Part shown: positions 29,636-46,447 of the stretch, piece after piece | Position numbering within the stretch: the stretch's first letter is position 1 | Layout of the letters: every line of letters begins with the position of its first letter | Assembly: GCF_000014145.1 (NCBI RefSeq) | Contig: NC_008255.1 | Location: forward strand, 2,868,001-2,932,000 | DNA: 64,000 nucleotides | Source: Cytophaga hutchinsonii ATCC 33406 | GTDB lineage: Bacteria > Bacteroidota > Bacteroidia > Cytophagales > Cytophagaceae | Reading direction: 5' to 3' | Made by a program: the position numbers and the translations under genes | The notes under the pieces: model-generated | What the model was told of the DNA's origin: nothing | What the model saw: only the letters and a program-made list of their open reading frames with translations | The model's database searches: none

Positions 29636-30676
29636 TTAAGCCTTAAAGTGATTCCAGCCCTGTGCCGTTACGGGTACTAAATGATCTCCCTTGGTATAAA
29701 TATTAACACCTTCATCTGCTGATTTTATATAACCGATCACAGAAATATCCGGATGGTTTCTGACTTTTTCATAATCCGCCTGCGGAATCGTGAACAGCAA
29801 TTCATAGTCTTCGCCTCCGTTCAGCATGATTGTTAGCGGGTCCAGTTCAAACTCCCGTGCGGTATCAAAAGTCATCGGATCAATGGGCAATTTATCTTCG
29901 TAGATATAGGCGCCTACGTTTGATTCTTTGCAGATATGCAGCAGTTCAGAAGCTAAACCATCCGACACATCAATCATGGCATTTGGTTTTAACCCTAACG
30001 TTTTAAAACTTTTAATAACATCAACACGTGCCTCCGGCCGTAACTGGCGCTGTACAATATATTCCTTATCCAGCAATTCAGGCTGCATCTCGGGGTTAGC
30101 CAGATATACCTGCTTTTCCCTTTCCAACACCTGAAGCCCCATAAACGCTGCTCCCAGATCGCCTGTTACGCAGATCAGATCATTCACCTGCGCACCGCTT
30201 CTGTACGCAACTTCTTCTTCCCTGCCTTCACCCACAACAGTAACAGAAATACCCAAGCCACTTCTGCTGGATGTAGTATCGCCGCCAACCAGATCAATGG
30301 AATAAGCATCACAGGCCAGTTTCATACCTGTATATAATTCTTCAATAGCTTCTACAGAAAAACGGTTACTCAAAGCAATTCCCACTACAATATGAGATGC
30401 AGTACCATTCATCGCTGCTATGTCAGAAACATTCACCGCTACTGATTTGTAGCCTAAATGTTTTAACGGTGTATAAGCAAGGTCAAAATGCACGCCTTCC
30501 ATCAATAAATCGGTAGAAATGAACTGAAATACATTTTCATCGGTTCTTATTACAGCTGCATCATCGCCGATAGACTTAATTACTTTATCCGATTTTGCGG
30601 GTAAAAACTCCTTTAATCGGTCAATAAGGCCAAATTCGCCAATTTCAGATAATTCTGTACGTTTTGAGCTGTCCAT
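29636..30676 (-). CDS. thiL: Thiamine-monophosphate kinase
   Basis: 346 residues. The AIRS-like fold is clear: GEFGLIDRLKEF, SIGDDAAVI, STDLLMEGVHFDL, VNVSDIAAMNG (metal Asp cluster), SIDLVGGDTTSSRSGLGISV and the C-terminal LNGGEDYELLFTIP. It phosphorylates thiamine monophosphate to the cofactor TPP in the cytoplasm. No other thi gene is adjacent. It is divergent from the tiny lipoprotein genes at 30745. Confidence 0.96.
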   Translation of the reverse strand: MDSSKRTELSEIGEFGLIDRLKEFLPAKSDKVIKSIGDDAAVIRTDENVFQFISTDLLMEGVHFDLAYTPLKHLGYKSVAVNVSDIAAMNGTASHIVVGIALSNRFSVEAIEELYTGMKLACDAYSIDLVGGDTTSSRSGLGISVTVVGEGREEEVAYRSGAQVNDLICVTGDLGAAFMGLQVLEREKQVYLANPEMQPELLDKEYIVQRQLRPEARVDVIKSFKTLGLKPNAMIDVSDGLASELLHICKESNVGAYIYEDKLPIDPMTFDTAREFELDPLTIMLNGGEDYELLFTIPQADYEKVRNHPDISVIGYIKSADEGVNIYTKGDHLVPVTAQGWNHFKA

Positions 30677-30680
30677 TAAT

Positions 30681-30711
30681 TTGAATTAATTGGTTACTTT
30701 TTATAACTTTA
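30681..30711 (+). promoter_or_regulatory. Candidate promoter for the tiny lipoprotein genes
   Basis: TTG (30681-30683) is followed 20 nt later by TAACTTTA (30704-30711), one base off TAnnTTTG. It lies 33 bp before the ATG at 30745. Confidence 0.45.
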
Positions 30712-30744: not shown

Positions 30745-30885
30745 ATGAAAAAAATAGCACTCTTCCTTATACTTGCTTTTACAGTGGGAACGTTTACTGA
30801 TTGTGTTAAATCAAGTAAAACATGTCGCCAGAATGTGAAAAAAATCAAGAAAAGAAGAAAAAATGATCCTCACTTCAAAGTATAA
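30745..30885 (+). CDS. Tiny basic lipoprotein-like peptide, copy 1
   Basis: 46 residues, too short for most gene finders. The hydrophobic N-terminus MKKIALFLILAFTVGTFTDC acts as a signal peptide. The box before Cys20 (TFTD) is a poor lipobox, so lipidation is uncertain. The mature part starts CVKSSKTCRQNVKKIKKRRK and is strongly basic. It matches the next gene's product in the pattern C-V-x-x-S-K-x-C followed by basic repeats, so the two are tandem paralogues. Function unknown. Confidence 0.65.
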   Translation: MKKIALFLILAFTVGTFTDCVKSSKTCRQNVKKIKKRRKNDPHFKV

Positions 30886-30904
30886 TTTATAATCCTCCAC
30901 TCAC

Positions 30905-31036
30905 ATGAAAACAAAACAAATCCTTATTGGCTTAACAATACTCCTGTTCTTAGGTGCTAGTTGTGTGCGTGCCAGCAAAAGCTGTAAAAAAGATTACAAA
31001 AAAGTAAGAAAAAGCAAGAGTGCCTGGACAAACTAA
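30905..31036 (+). CDS. Tiny basic lipoprotein, copy 2
   Basis: 43 residues. The signal MKTKQILIGLTILLFLGASC has a canonical lipobox (LGAS-C, Cys20). The mature peptide is CVRASKSCKKDYKKVRKSKS plus AWTN, a lysine/arginine-rich tail carrying a second Cys six residues after the first. It starts 19 bp after copy 1. Lipid-anchored and basic, it could bind peptidoglycan, LPS or nucleic acid; this is only inference. Confidence 0.7.
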   Translation: MKTKQILIGLTILLFLGASCVRASKSCKKDYKKVRKSKSAWTN

Positions 31037-31153: not shown

Positions 31154-31480
31154 ATGATTTCAATAACAGATAAAGCAAAAAATCACGTAGCCGATCTTCG
31201 CGCACGTGAAGGATACACAGAAGAGTATAACATTCGTGTTTCTGTTAAGGGCGGCGGTTGTTCTGGCTTGATGTATGATTTGGATTTTGACAATAAAATT
31301 GATGAAGCCGATCAGGTTTTTGAAGATAAAGGTGTAAAAATCTTAGTGGACAAAAAAAGCTTACTGTATCTGCTGGGTACAACACTTGACTTTACAGATG
31401 GCTTGAATGGCAAAGGATTTCATTTCGTAAATCCAAATGCCAGCAGAACCTGTGGTTGCGGAGAAAGTTTCTCTGTTTAA
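31154..31480 (+). CDS. A-type iron-sulfur carrier (IscA/SufA/ErpA family)
   Basis: 108 residues. The three conserved cysteines are in VKGGGCSGLMYDL and the C-terminal SRTCGCGESF, with the usual GFHFVNPNA before them. A-type carriers pass [2Fe-2S] or [4Fe-4S] clusters to apo-proteins. Which of IscA, SufA or ErpA it matches cannot be told here; no isc or suf genes are adjacent. It ends at a strong terminator. Confidence 0.95.
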   Translation: MISITDKAKNHVADLRAREGYTEEYNIRVSVKGGGCSGLMYDLDFDNKIDEADQVFEDKGVKILVDKKSLLYLLGTTLDFTDGLNGKGFHFVNPNASRTCGCGESFSV

Positions 31481-39634: not shown

Positions 39635-42600
39635 TTAATTAGATTTAGCTAAAATCTGAAGCCAGCCTTTGTATTCCTCGTGACCGCAGCCTGGTTTTAA
39701 ATAATAATAATAAACTCCGTCTTCTGTGTTATCCGCCTTCCATGTTCCGTCGTAATTATTGGCTTCATACACACGGTTTCCCCAACGATTATAGATCTCA
39801 ATGTAAGAGTTTGCAGAGAACATTTTTTTATCATAATTATTCACCTCAACAATTTTCAATTCATCGTTCTTACCATCCTCATTTGGTGTAATCAGATTTG
39901 GAATAAGAAGCATTTGTTTATCAATCGCGTGAATGGTAAGGGTATCCTGAAACGTTCTGCAACCAGCCTGGTCTAAATCGTTCACATATACATAATAAAT
40001 ATTATCCATGCCATCCGGAACAATATCGAGGTAATTCCGGTAGGTTGTGATGGTATCCTTCGTTGCTGCGTTGATCCATGCATAGCTATAATGGTCAGAG
40101 CCGCCGGTAGCAAAAGCTTCTACCCTTCTGGATACACCAACACATAAGGTATCCATCGGAATCTGCAACGATGTAATATCAAAATCAGGCAGACCAGCCC
40201 GAATACTAATCGTATCTGATTTTTCACGTCCGCATCCTTCAGAAACAGTAAAGATAAACGAATAGGTTGAACCTGCCTGCAAGCCAAGTACACGAACATT
40301 GTTTGAATCTGTTTTACTGGCAAACGTTGTAGCAATTGCTTCATATACCGACCACTTGCCTTTACCTACTGCAGGCGTTACAGCATGCAGATCAATATAG
40401 TTCTGACAGGTTACGATATCTTTTCCTAAATCGACAGGAGAATTATCAGGGGAATAACGTATCGAAAATTCTTTTGAAAGGTTTGCCGCACAGCCTGCAT
40501 CCGTTTTAAAGTATACCCGATAATTACCTGCTTCACTTAATGTAACAGCAGCATCGGTACCCAATGAAACATCTTCTTTAAACCATTCAAATGTACCTGT
40601 AAAATTTGTTGTCACGGCAGACATGGTAACTGTTTCTCCCGGACAGAATGTTAATGGGCCGTCTGCTTGTACAGCAGGCTGCGGAGGTATTGGGTTAACG
40701 GTAACTTCAATAGTATCTGAAGCTGCAGAAGGGCAATCATTTGATGAAGTATACGTAACCGCATATTTACCGGATGCAGTTACTTTTAATGGGTTATCGG
40801 CTGAACCATTAGACCAGTTAAATGTTCCTCCAGTAAAACCAGCGCTCGATGCTGAAAGAACGACAGAACCACCCATGCAGAAAACAGTTGGGCCGTCAGT
40901 ATCTATTCTTGGCGCCGGCGGAATCGGATTCACCGTTACTTCAATGCTATCCGAAGCTGCAGATGGGCAATCGTTTGATGACGTATACGTAACGGAATAT
41001 TTACCGGATGCAGTTACTTTTAATGGATTAACCGCCGAACCATTAGACCAGTTAAATGTTCCTCCGCTAAAACCCAAACTGCTTGCACGAAGTATAATTG
41101 AATCTCCTGAACAGAACGTTGCCGGTGTAGTAGTTGCGATTTCAGGTTTTGGCGGAATTGGATTCACCGTTACTTCAATACTATCCGAAGCGGCAGATGG
41201 GCAATCGTTTGATGACGTATACGTAACGGAATATTTACCGGATGCAGTTACTTTTAATGGATTAACCGCCGAACCATTAGACCAGTTAAATGTTCCTCCG
41301 CTAAAACCTAAACTGCTTGCACGAAGTATAATTGAATCTCCCGAACAAAACGTTGCCGGTGTAGTAGTTGCTATTTCGGGCTTTGGAGGGATTGGATTAA
41401 CCGTTACTTCAATGCTATCCGAAGCTGCAGAGGGGCAATCATTTGATGACGTATACGTAACGGAATATTTACCGGATGCAGTTACTTTTAATGGATTAAC
41501 CGCTGAACCATTAGACCAGTTAAATGTTCCTCCGCTAAAACCCAAACTGCTTGCACGAAGTATAATTGAATCTCCTGAACAAAACGTTGCGGGTGTAGTA
41601 GTTGCGATTTCAGGTTTTGGCGGAATTGGATTAACCGTTACTTCAATGCTATCCGAAGCTGCAGAGGGGCAATCGTTTGATGACGTATACGTAACGGAAT
41701 ATTTACCGGATGCAGTTACTTTTAATGGATTAACCGCTGAACCATTAGACCAGTTAAATGTTCCTCCGCTAAAACCCAAACTGCTTGCACGAAGTATAAT
41801 TGAATCTCCCGAACAAAACGTTGCCGGTGTAGTAGTTGCTATTTCGGGCTTTGGAGGGATTGGATTAACCGTTACTTCAATACTATCCGAAGCTGCAGAG
41901 GGGCAATCATTTGATGACGTATACGTAACGGAATATTTACCGGATGCAGTTACTTTTAATGGATTAACCGCTGAACCATTAGACCAGTTAAATGTTCCTC
42001 CGCTAAAACCCAAACTGCTTGCACGAAGTATAATTGAATCTCCTGAACAAAACGTTGCGGGTGTAGTAGTTGCGATTTCAGGTTTTGGCGGAATTGGATT
42101 CACCGTTACCGTTGTTGAAGCTGAAGTTGGTGCAGGACAATCTACGTCTGATTTATAATCCACTTTGTAGATGCCCGATGTAGTTACAATCAATGCATTA
42201 CCTGTTGCTCCATTTGACCAGGTATACGTACCACCTGTATATCCTGCTGTAGATGCAGTAAGGGTTACCGAGCCGCCGTTACAGAAGGTTGTCGGAACGC
42301 TTGCTGTTACTGTGGGCTGCGGCGGAATCGGATTCACCGTTACTGTTGTTGAAGCTGAAGTTGGTGCAGGACAATCTGCGCCGGATTTATAATCAACCGT
42401 ATACGTTCCTGAAGTACTTACAACCAGCGAACTGCCTGTTGCTCCATTTGACCAGGTATACGTACCACCTGTATATCCTGCCATAGATGCAGTAAGGGTT
42501 ACCGAGCCGCCGTTACAGAAGGTTGTCGGACCATTTGCTGTTACGGTAGGCTGCGGCGGAATCGGATTCACCGTTACCGTTGTGGATGCCGAAGTTGGCG

Positions 42601-45600
42601 CCGTACAGTCTGCGGCCGATTTATAGATTACGGAATACGTTCCTGAAGTACTTACAACTAATGAATTACCTGTTGCTCCATTTGACCAGGTATACGTACC
42701 ACCTGTATATCCTGCTGTAGATGCAGTAAGGGTTACAGAACCACCGTTACAGAAGGTTGTCGGATCGCTTGCTGTTACTGTGGGTTGCGGCGGAATCGGA
42801 TTTACCGTTACTGTTGTGGATGCCGAAGTTGGCGCCGTACAATCTGCGCCGGATTTATAATCAACCGTATACGTTCCTGATGTAGTTACAACCAATGAAT
42901 TACCGGTTGCTCCGTTTGACCATGTGTATGTACCGCCGGTATAACCTGCGGTTGATGCAGTAAGGGTTACCGAGCCGCCGTTACAGAAGGTTGTCGGAAC
43001 GCTTGCTGTTACGGTAGGCTGCGGCGGAATCGGATTTACCGTTACTGTTGTTGAAGCTGAAGTTGGCGCCGTACAATCTGCGCCGGATTTATAATCAACC
43101 GTATACGTTCCTGATGTAGTTACAACCAATGCATTACCGGTTGCTCCATTTGACCAGGTATACGTACCACCTGTATATCCTGCCGTAGATGCAGTAAGGG
43201 TTACAGAACCACCGTTACAGAAGGTTGTCGGACCATTTGCTGTTACGGTAGGCTGCGGCGGAATCGGATTTACCGTTACTGTTGTGGATGCCGAAGTTGG
43301 CGCCGTACAGTCTGCGGCCGATTTATAGATTACGGAATACGTTCCTGAAGTACTTACAACTAATGAATTACCTGTTGCTCCATTTGACCAGGTATACGTA
43401 CCACCTGTATATCCTGCTGTAGATGCAGTAAGGGTTACAGAACCACCGTTACAGAAGGTTGTCGGATCGCTTGCTGTTACTGTGGGTTGCGGCGGAATCG
43501 GATTCACCGTTACCGTTGTGGATGCCGAAGTTGGCGCAGGACAGTCTGCGGCCGATTTATAGATTACGGAATATGTTCCTGAAGTACTTACAACCAGCGA
43601 ACTGCCGGTTGCTCCGTTTGACCAGGTATACGTACCACCTGTATATCCTGCGGTTGATGCGGTAAACGTTACCGAACCGCCATTACAGAAGGTTGTCGGA
43701 CCGCTTGTTGTTACGGTAGGCTGCGGCGGAATCGGATTCACCGTTACCGTTGTGGATGCCGAAGTTGGCGCAGGACAATCTGCGGCTGATTTATAGATTA
43801 CGGAATATGTTCCTGAAGTACTTACAACCAGCGAACTGCCGGTTGCTCCGTTTGACCATGTGTATGTACCGCCGGTATAACCTGCGGTTGATGCGGTAAG
43901 GGTTACCGAACCGCCATTACAGAAGATTAAGGGACCGCTTGCTGTTACGGTAGGCTGCGGCGGAATCGGATTTACCGTTACTGTTGTTGAAGCTGAAGTT
44001 GGTGCCGTACAGTCCGCTCCCGATTTATAGATTACGGAATACGTTCCTGATGTAGTTACAACCAATGAACTGCCGGTTGCGCCGGTTGACCACGTATATG
44101 TACCGCCGGTATAACCTGCGGTTGATGCGGTAAGGGTTACCGAGCCACCATTACAGAAGATTAAGGGACCGCTTGCTGTTACGGTAGGCTGCGGCGGAAT
44201 CGGATTTACCGTTACTGTTGTGGATGCCGAAGTTGGCGCCGTACAGTCTGCGGCCGATTTATAGATTACGGAATATGTTCCTGAAGTACTTACAACCAGC
44301 GAACTGCCGGTTGCTCCGTTTGACCACGTATACGTACCGCCGGTATATCCTGCGGTTGATGCGGTAAGCGTTACCGAGCCACCGTTACAGAAGATTAACG
44401 GACCGCTTGCTGTTACGGTAGGCTGCGGCGGAATCGGATTTACCGTTACTGTTGTGGATTCTGAAGTTGGTGCCGTACAGTCTGCGGCCGATTTATAGAT
44501 TACGGAATATGTTCCTGAAGTACTTACAACCAGCGAACTGCCGGTTGCTCCGTTTGACCAGGTATACGTACCGCCGGTATATCCTGCGGTTGATGCGGTA
44601 AGCGTTACCGAGCCACCGTTACAGAAGATTAACGGACCGCTTGCTGTTACGGTAGGCTGCGGCGGAATCGGATTTACCGTTACTGTTGTGGATGCTGAAG
44701 TTGGTGCAGGACAATCTGCGGCCGATTTATAGATTACGGAATATGTTCCTGAAGTAGTTACAACCAGCGAACTGCCGGTTGCGCCGGTTGACCAGGTATA
44801 CGTACCACCTGTATACCCTGCGGTTGATGCGGTAAGCGTTACCGAGCCACCGTTACAGAAGGTTGTCGGACCATTTGCTGTTACGGTAGGCTGCGGCGGA
44901 ATCGGATTTACCGTTACTGTTGTGGATGCCGAAGTTGGCGCCGTACAGTCTGCGGCCGATTTATAGATTACGGAATATGTTCCTGATGTAGTTACAACCA
45001 GCGAACTGCCGGTGGCGCCGGTTGACCACGTGTATGTACCGCCCGTATAACCTGCGGTTGATGCGGTAAGCGTTACAGAGCCACCGTTACAGAAGGTTAA
45101 CGGACCGCTTGGCGTTACGGTAGGCTGCGGCGGAATCGGATTTACTGTAAATGTAAAGCCGCTCGTATTTTGGGTAGAACAGGCAGCAGGCTTAATGGTA
45201 TTTGCAACAACAACAAAATAGGTGGCGCTCTCTGAAACAGTAAGTGTATTCGTGTTTGTATTAGTCACGATCAGGTTTGCGGGAACAACACTGTTTTTAT
45301 ACCAGCTGTATGTATAGGTATCCCCTGCTTTCAATCCACTTGCATTCGCTGTTAATACCGTTGAACTTCCCGCACATACATTGTTCACGGGAGCAGTGAT
45401 CGTTACTGCTGTAGGTGGCAGGCAAAGAGGCGTACATAATGCTTTATCCGAAATACAGTTACAATCCGGTGTTGCCTGTCCTAATTGTGTAGCAGTTGCT
45501 GAAGGTCCGCAATATTTAATTTTAGAAGAATTCGACAAGGCAGAGTTAAATGAACCGTAAGAAGTTATTTTAAATAACGCACACTCCCCGGCAGGAATAC

Positions 45601-46447
45601 TATCTCCTCTGAATAAATTCGGGGTATTATTTGTTTCCAGATTTGTGGCTTGCATCACAGCACCTTCATTCATGTAAATCGGTCCTGCATTTGCATTGAT
45701 TGCAATGGTTCCTGCAATAACAGTTCCTGCATTATATATTCTACCACTATTGATGATCAGCTTTCCGCCAATGGTTATCTTCGATTCGCCACAAAAATTT
45801 GTCAGCGCGTTTCCACCGTTCTGTACAGTAAAATCTCCTGAAGCAGTAAGTTCTCCATTATTCAAAACGAACCCTTCATTTTGAAGGATCACTTTTCCGG
45901 TTGAGTTAAAGTGAGCGTTTTTCCCGACAATAATTCTACCGCCTTGATTGGATGTAATTTCCTGTGTGTTTATGGTTGAATTTTCTTCCGCAGTAAAAAA
46001 TATCTGCCCGCCCGGATTTAAATTCTGAGAAATCGTAAGTATGGCTCCTGTTGTAGTAAGGAAAGACGACTTGCCGTTAATGGTTGCACTAGACAAAAGT
46101 GCGCCTGTATTATGAGCAATAAATGAAAAGGTATCCGCTTCTGCTACCAGGGAAGTTATATGGGTATTGTCTCCAAAACTTTCAATTGTATTGCTCAGGG
46201 CGGTTGTTCCGACCTGAACATTGGTCAGTTGAACATTCGGAGCGCAGATTTTCAACCGTACATTTCTATACGTAGAAATAAATGTAAATGAACTTCCTCC
46301 GGAAATACAAATTACCTGATTATTAGCTGTTGCAACAATTGCAGCATTTGAAGCATAAGAAGTTGTACAATTATTACATTGGGCATATCCCTGTATACTA
46401 GCGCAAACAGCAAACAGAAATGTTAGAATTCCGATTTTCATATTCAT
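39635..46447 (-). CDS. Giant secreted repeat protein with CHU_C (T9SS type B) domain
   Basis: 2270 residues. Two start ATGs are possible (46447 or 46441). The signal peptide ends at GYA-QCNN. Residues about 25-330 form a beta-solenoid-like region (repeated INTQEITSNQGGRIIVGK, IYNAGTVIAGT). An Ig-like domain covers about 346-438, then 13 type A repeats (439-1452) and 5 type B repeats (1453-1842), each 78 residues, with a hybrid (1843-1920) and a diverged copy after. The C-terminal NLITPNEDGKNDELK, YIEIYNRWGNRVYEA and DGVYYYYLKPG mark the sorting domain. Probably a long surface adhesin or stalk; the TFC/C pair in each repeat suggests a disulfide. Confidence 0.95.
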   Translation of the reverse strand: MNMKIGILTFLFAVCASIQGYAQCNNCTTSYASNAAIVATANNQVICISGGSSFTFISTYRNVRLKICAPNVQLTNVQVGTTALSNTIESFGDNTHITSLVAEADTFSFIAHNTGALLSSATINGKSSFLTTTGAILTISQNLNPGGQIFFTAEENSTINTQEITSNQGGRIIVGKNAHFNSTGKVILQNEGFVLNNGELTASGDFTVQNGGNALTNFCGESKITIGGKLIINSGRIYNAGTVIAGTIAINANAGPIYMNEGAVMQATNLETNNTPNLFRGDSIPAGECALFKITSYGSFNSALSNSSKIKYCGPSATATQLGQATPDCNCISDKALCTPLCLPPTAVTITAPVNNVCAGSSTVLTANASGLKAGDTYTYSWYKNSVVPANLIVTNTNTNTLTVSESATYFVVVANTIKPAACSTQNTSGFTFTVNPIPPQPTVTPSGPLTFCNGGSVTLTASTAGYTGGTYTWSTGATGSSLVVTTSGTYSVIYKSAADCTAPTSASTTVTVNPIPPQPTVTANGPTTFCNGGSVTLTASTAGYTGGTYTWSTGATGSSLVVTTSGTYSVIYKSAADCPAPTSASTTVTVNPIPPQPTVTASGPLIFCNGGSVTLTASTAGYTGGTYTWSNGATGSSLVVSTSGTYSVIYKSAADCTAPTSESTTVTVNPIPPQPTVTASGPLIFCNGGSVTLTASTAGYTGGTYTWSNGATGSSLVVSTSGTYSVIYKSAADCTAPTSASTTVTVNPIPPQPTVTASGPLIFCNGGSVTLTASTAGYTGGTYTWSTGATGSSLVVTTSGTYSVIYKSGADCTAPTSASTTVTVNPIPPQPTVTASGPLIFCNGGSVTLTASTAGYTGGTYTWSNGATGSSLVVSTSGTYSVIYKSAADCPAPTSASTTVTVNPIPPQPTVTTSGPTTFCNGGSVTFTASTAGYTGGTYTWSNGATGSSLVVSTSGTYSVIYKSAADCPAPTSASTTVTVNPIPPQPTVTASDPTTFCNGGSVTLTASTAGYTGGTYTWSNGATGNSLVVSTSGTYSVIYKSAADCTAPTSASTTVTVNPIPPQPTVTANGPTTFCNGGSVTLTASTAGYTGGTYTWSNGATGNALVVTTSGTYTVDYKSGADCTAPTSASTTVTVNPIPPQPTVTASVPTTFCNGGSVTLTASTAGYTGGTYTWSNGATGNSLVVTTSGTYTVDYKSGADCTAPTSASTTVTVNPIPPQPTVTASDPTTFCNGGSVTLTASTAGYTGGTYTWSNGATGNSLVVSTSGTYSVIYKSAADCTAPTSASTTVTVNPIPPQPTVTANGPTTFCNGGSVTLTASMAGYTGGTYTWSNGATGSSLVVSTSGTYTVDYKSGADCPAPTSASTTVTVNPIPPQPTVTASVPTTFCNGGSVTLTASTAGYTGGTYTWSNGATGNALIVTTSGIYKVDYKSDVDCPAPTSASTTVTVNPIPPKPEIATTTPATFCSGDSIILRASSLGFSGGTFNWSNGSAVNPLKVTASGKYSVTYTSSNDCPSAASDSIEVTVNPIPPKPEIATTTPATFCSGDSIILRASSLGFSGGTFNWSNGSAVNPLKVTASGKYSVTYTSSNDCPSAASDSIEVTVNPIPPKPEIATTTPATFCSGDSIILRASSLGFSGGTFNWSNGSAVNPLKVTASGKYSVTYTSSNDCPSAASDSIEVTVNPIPPKPEIATTTPATFCSGDSIILRASSLGFSGGTFNWSNGSAVNPLKVTASGKYSVTYTSSNDCPSAASDSIEVTVNPIPPKPEIATTTPATFCSGDSIILRASSLGFSGGTFNWSNGSAVNPLKVTASGKYSVTYTSSNDCPSAASDSIEVTVNPIPPAPRIDTDGPTVFCMGGSVVLSASSAGFTGGTFNWSNGSADNPLKVTASGKYAVTYTSSNDCPSAASDTIEVTVNPIPPQPAVQADGPLTFCPGETVTMSAVTTNFTGTFEWFKEDVSLGTDAAVTLSEAGNYRVYFKTDAGCAANLSKEFSIRYSPDNSPVDLGKDIVTCQNYIDLHAVTPAVGKGKWSVYEAIATTFASKTDSNNVRVLGLQAGSTYSFIFTVSEGCGREKSDTISIRAGLPDFDITSLQIPMDTLCVGVSRRVEAFATGGSDHYSYAWINAATKDTITTYRNYLDIVPDGMDNIYYVYVNDLDQAGCRTFQDTLTIHAIDKQMLLIPNLITPNEDGKNDELKIVEVNNYDKKMFSANSYIEIYNRWGNRVYEANNYDGTWKADNTEDGVYYYYLKPGCGHEEYKGWLQILAKSN
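40922..42091 (-). repeat. Type B tandem array: 5 x 234 bp
   Basis: Five identical 78-residue units (PPKPEIATTTPATFCSGDSI ... IEVTVNPI). The DNA alternates between synonymous variants: units 2 and 4 from the left share ctatttcgggctttggaggg, units 1, 3 and 5 share cgatttcaggttttggcgga. A diverged sixth unit (PPAPRIDTDGPTVFC) follows at 40688-40921. Confidence 0.93.
42092..45133 (-). repeat. Type A tandem array: 13 x 234 bp
   Basis: Thirteen near-identical 78-residue units (PPQPTVTASGPTTFCNGGSV ... TTVTVNPI). Units 8-10 and 11-13 match as three-unit blocks (openings ASD, ANG, ASV in both), so there is a 702-bp higher-order period. The word tgggttgcgg occurs at 42781 and again at 43483, 702 bp apart. 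Confidence 0.95.

Follow-up and report, generated by a model that had tools for sequence, protein, structure and literature searches.

A tandem pair of conserved tiny basic peptides in Cytophaga hutchinsonii, probably members of an unnamed envelope protein family that appears restricted to Cytophagales

Judged by comparative sequence analysis, two tandem open reading frames of Cytophaga hutchinsonii, encoding peptides of 46 and 43 residues, are genuine conserved protein genes, and the peptides belong to an unnamed family of tiny, strongly basic and probably membrane-anchored envelope proteins. The genes lie in the window analysed here, a stretch of 64,000 nucleotides covering positions 2,868,001-2,932,000 of the single-contig genome of 4,433,218 bases. 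Both frames, proposed in an initial annotation of this DNA, are present at the locus, each with an ATG start and with a gap of 19 bp between them. In window coordinates, the locus comprises the following features:

29636..30676, minus strand: thiL-like gene, by our own reading a thiamine-monophosphate kinase gene, upstream of and divergent from copy 1 (tblastn)
30680..30710, plus strand: candidate Bacteroidota-type promoter, TTTG-N20-TAACTTT, 34 bp 5' of the copy 1 ATG
30745..30885, plus strand: copy 1 (A type), 46 residues; signal peptide up to TFTD-C, mature part CVKSSKTC followed by a predicted basic helix
30905..31036, plus strand: copy 2 (B type), 43 residues; lipobox GAS-C, mature part CVRASKSC followed by a basic tail with a conserved Trp
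31154..31480, plus strand: IscA/HesB-like gene (our own reading), downstream of copy 2

Each peptide opens with a signal peptide, and the pattern C-V-x-x-S-K-x-C that the initial annotation had described is found in both (CVKSSKTC and CVRASKSC), as are the Lys/Arg-rich tails, with 11 basic residues versus one acidic in 27 residues of copy 1 and nine versus one in 24 of copy 2. The proposed paralogy of the two copies holds beyond composition: their profiles cross-match, copy 2 being matched at E=1.8e-8 by a profile built from relatives of copy 1, and with mature-only profiles the median scores of the other subfamilies are about 15-22 bits, versus about 0 for control shuffles of the mature parts that hold both Cys residues in place. 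The best relatives were matched at E-values down to 1e-23. By within-genus pN/pS (0.03-0.17, with synonymous sites near saturation), the mature parts are under strong purifying selection, and in the same comparison the signal peptides evolve mostly faster than the mature parts. The notion that the copies are chance intergenic frames of no function, which their tiny size and the lack of a family model might encourage, is refuted by this conservation and retains practically no probability: homologues, a pN/pS well below 1, fixed synteny and a preserved frame all speak against it, and upstream of the scanned iscA-like genes an unrelated frame with a signal peptide and a Cys was seen only once. 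An RNA element in place of a protein was also rejected, Rfam giving one sub-threshold chance match and the pN/pS pattern being that of coding sequence.

The family pattern, a signal peptide followed by a Cys, six residues and a second Cys, is shared by almost all members, of which there are about 35, with spacing variants of C-x5-C in genomes G117 and G142 and C-x8-C at locus L031. Both copies show the mature-part homology, two Cys residues, signal peptide and basic tail of the family. The net charge of the mature part is +10 in copy 1 and +8 in copy 2, and ranges from +5 to +11 across the family, leaving out one A2 row whose charge was computed from an earlier Cys. Copy 1 ends in FKV and copy 2 in WTN, while tails in the family end in FKV, FTM or IKM, or in W-T-N. 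An AF2 model of copy 1 contains a cationic helix at residues 25-40 (block pLDDT 87); at a pTM of 0.37, only this local helix is usable, and we make no tertiary claim. Small lipoproteins are well known as a kind. That this family matches none described was borne out, as no Pfam or NCBIfam model scored above or near its cut-off and no description of the family was found in open-licence papers. The generic lipoprotein signal model LPAM_1 of Pfam reached only E ~0.25, for some relatives. The likeness to LPAM_1 and to signal peptidase II substrates lies in the canonical lipobox of copy 2; however, the model describes the signal and not the C-x6-C family, and copy 1 departs from it at -1. The small proteins of Bacteroidota envelopes are poorly known, and the family thus described adds to them an unnamed, conserved set of probable lipoproteins whose mature parts have about 25 residues and bear a clear signature.

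Among the 19 genomes searched from Cytophagaceae (the host's own family, f1), the A type is present in 18, G014 alone lacking it, which excludes the absence of homologues that the initial annotation had left open. By tblastn, this copy is divergent from thiL in 17 genomes, and in the 18th, G010, the contig ends. Copy 2 lies in tandem behind copy 1 in six (G000-G004 and G007), and an iscA-like gene is directly downstream of the family locus in nine. No further copies rose above noise in the host genome. A third subfamily, treated below, and further variants are found in Cytophagaceae and also in families f3, f16 and f20 of Cytophagales. The homologues sought in Bacteroidota therefore exist, but they are located in Cytophagales and not across the phylum: 395 genomes across the class and 395 across the phylum held nothing convincing outside Cytophagales, the weak matches aligning mostly to the signal peptide only and being set aside as noise. 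Since these searches yield only signal-peptide noise, the family appears restricted to Cytophagales. Linkage to iscA as a general rule was rejected, because outside Cytophagaceae it is shown only by G052, a genome of another family, in which an IscA-like gene follows a related tiny lipoprotein gene at a distance of 58 bp (L224:3115-3655); in the other non-Cytophagaceae upstream regions scanned, no family member was found upstream of iscA.

Copies 1 and 2 probably form one transcript, and the IscA/HesB-like gene probably has a promoter of its own, TAATTTTG immediately 5' of its ATG. The candidate promoter proposed upstream of copy 1 fared less evenly: the block, 34 bp from the ATG, is conserved in both congeners (G001 and G002), but its TTTG-N20-TAACTTT pattern is no commoner than chance, with 19 occurrences in the window versus 17.7 expected. 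A sigma-70 promoter scan gave fewer sites than in shuffles, and a search for terminators found none.

As a background for the lipoboxes, we used 35 candidate signal peptides from 864 kb of the host genome. The residue at -1 is S, A or G in 30 of them, which are lipoprotein-like, with S the commonest; it is D in one and V, I, F or Q in four. The lipobox of copy 2, G-A-S-C, is a proper one, as first described, with S at -1 as in the host's lipoprotein-like signal peptides. That of copy 1, TFTD-C, is degenerate in having none of G, A or S at -1, and we regard it as atypical because an acidic -1 residue occurs in none of the 30 lipoprotein-like signal peptides of the 864-kb sample. The lone D case, SAFSQ-DC, looks more like a place where signal peptidase I cuts just before a Gln, in accord with the Bacteroidetes Q-rule (PMC5837995).

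Asp or Glu at -1 occurs in 10 of the 18 A-type copies, from five genera (G000, G001, G002, G003, G005, G006, G009, G012, G015 and G017), so the Asp of copy 1 is unlikely to be a private defect. The other eight have an ordinary residue there (seven S and one G); in G003, copy 2 carries D as well. Because A-type copies with and without the acidic residue alike preserve the second Cys, its position and the basic tail, decay of the copy 1 lipobox is unlikely; the acidic -1 residue of the A type is more likely a tolerated or selected variant, and offers a natural test of whether lipoprotein processing in Bacteroidota copes with such a residue at this position. The earlier suggestion that the two copies go to different places thereby becomes one possibility only, since the acidic -1 residue is not private to copy 1. 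Surface lipoproteins of Bacteroidota carry a D/E-rich export signal (LES) just after the Cys (PMC5080379). An acidic LES at +2 to +6 is absent from both copies, in which VKSSK and VRASK follow the Cys, and surface display is therefore not predicted by that consensus, which derives from genera other than the host's.

A third subfamily, the C type, carries C-x6-C-KKAHKNIKKLHLKNW and the like, with the signature C-x6-C...LHLxNW. In 9/9 genomes, the LHLxNW-type gene lies directly 3' of a gene for a secreted, single-domain LIC11966-domain protein of about 130-180 residues, which matches NF047958, 'LIC11966 family surface protein', and constitutes a protein family separate from the tiny lipoproteins. 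The subfamily is thereby linked to LIC11966-domain surface proteins, for whose partners in free-living bacteria we know of no description. A narrow-alignment profile search of genome contigs gave eight named C-type loci. The two-gene unit of LIC11966 (NF047958) and a tiny basic lipoprotein was seen at L074, L075, L077, L078, L081, L082, L084, L085 and L200. At L081 (G104), three tandem tiny genes stand behind the LIC11966-domain gene. At L084:4095-4614, the LIC11966-domain gene of G142 stops early (...EYVCRRR) relative to the continuing frame of its close relative G117, probably through a frameshift or assembly error in this metagenome contig. The pair at L200, filed as Chitinophagaceae, and its neighbours closely resemble loci of Cytophagaceae MAGs, and may represent a mislabelled bin or a recent transfer. 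The host's only LIC11966 protein found is encoded at 733 kb, and the partner is absent from the locus of copies 1 and 2. The Leptospira protein LIC11966 reportedly binds complement factors H and I (PMC10794618), an activity on which the present analysis has no bearing for the Cytophagales proteins.

We tentatively propose, at somewhat below even probability, that the two copies are membrane-held, periplasm-facing cationic helices, possibly disulfide-paired, that serve as envelope adaptors. Both peptides would be exported by Sec. In copy 2, the first Cys would be lipidated before a signal peptidase II cut, and the peptide, having no acidic surface-export signal, would probably stay anchored in the outer membrane, facing the periplasm. 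Copy 1 would follow the same export route, but the Asp before its Cys might slow processing or retain it in the inner membrane. The short cationic helix of each copy could bind an anionic partner, whether peptidoglycan, LPS phosphates or an acidic envelope protein, and the conserved second Cys could pair two peptides by disulfide, A with B or like with like. By analogy with the C subfamily, an adaptor or partner role in the envelope may be supposed. The C-x6-C pattern, the charge, the low pN/pS, helix 25-40, the absent LES, the S/A/G-C ends that host lipoprotein-like signal peptides share with copy 2, and the position of the C subfamily 3' of LIC11966 all favour the adaptor reading. Against it stand the Asp of copy 1, which falls outside all 30 comparators, and the missing LIC11966 partner; the thiL and iscA neighbours point to no envelope role, which suggests a further count against it. 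As a long shot, the acidic -1 residue could be a selected signal that sorts the paralogues, one being retained in the inner membrane and the other passing on to the outer, so that a cationic pair of about 25 residues each would link or sense both membranes in a manner specific to Cytophagales.

A rather unlikely alternative to envelope adaptors is that the copies are abundant outer-membrane lipopeptides that attach to peptidoglycan through the basic tail, either by charge or by a covalent bond, in the manner of Braun lipoprotein Lpp. The likeness, one of working only, lies in the very small size, the probable lipid anchor and the probable periplasm-facing position, to which the basic tail, the absent LES and near-fixation in Cytophagaceae can be added. 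However, the copies are far more basic than Lpp, and none of the tail types in the family carries the Lpp-type terminal Lys, so a covalent linkage of the Lpp style is not expected; nor was any Lpp model matched in Pfam or NCBIfam.

The ecnA-ecnB layout consists of two tandem lipoproteins of 40-50 residues, and the arrangement of the copies resembles it. We consider it improbable that they form an entericidin-like pair, a toxin and antidote in tandem in which the membrane activity of one tiny lipoprotein is kept in check by the other. Their cationic helix might indeed disturb membranes, and entericidins have been described as proposed pore-forming lipopeptides (PMC7296081). Yet no Pfam or NCBIfam entericidin model was matched at E up to 1, and an obligate toxin-antidote pair is unlikely because 12/18 copy-1 genomes have no tandem copy 2. 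The family is mostly single-copy and, unlike most toxin pairs, strongly conserved at a fixed chromosomal site. To our knowledge, the second Cys and the Lys/Arg helix are not entericidin features.

The recurrent neighbours raise the further reading that the copies are small regulatory partners of the thiL or iscA products, with a metabolic or iron-sulfur link and the second Cys as a metal ligand. We hold this to be very unlikely in spite of the thiL divergence in 17 genomes and the iscA-like gene directly downstream in nine and in G052, as the signal peptide implies export away from cytoplasmic enzymes, G052 is the only genome outside Cytophagaceae with a member 5' of iscA among the upstream regions scanned, and other family members sit elsewhere. 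Equally far from probable, if not slightly more so, is a secreted pheromone-like signalling peptide released from either the signal peptide or the tail: the weak matches to Phr/AimP pheromone precursors that hint at it fall in the signal-peptide region, do not reach the cut-off and are of a sort that signal peptides typically give, while the mature part is strongly conserved and no receptor gene is adjacent.

Elsewhere in the window, at 40623-42158 (plus strand), we observed an open frame of 511 residues lying antisense within a 2270-residue open reading frame at 39635-46447 (minus strand).
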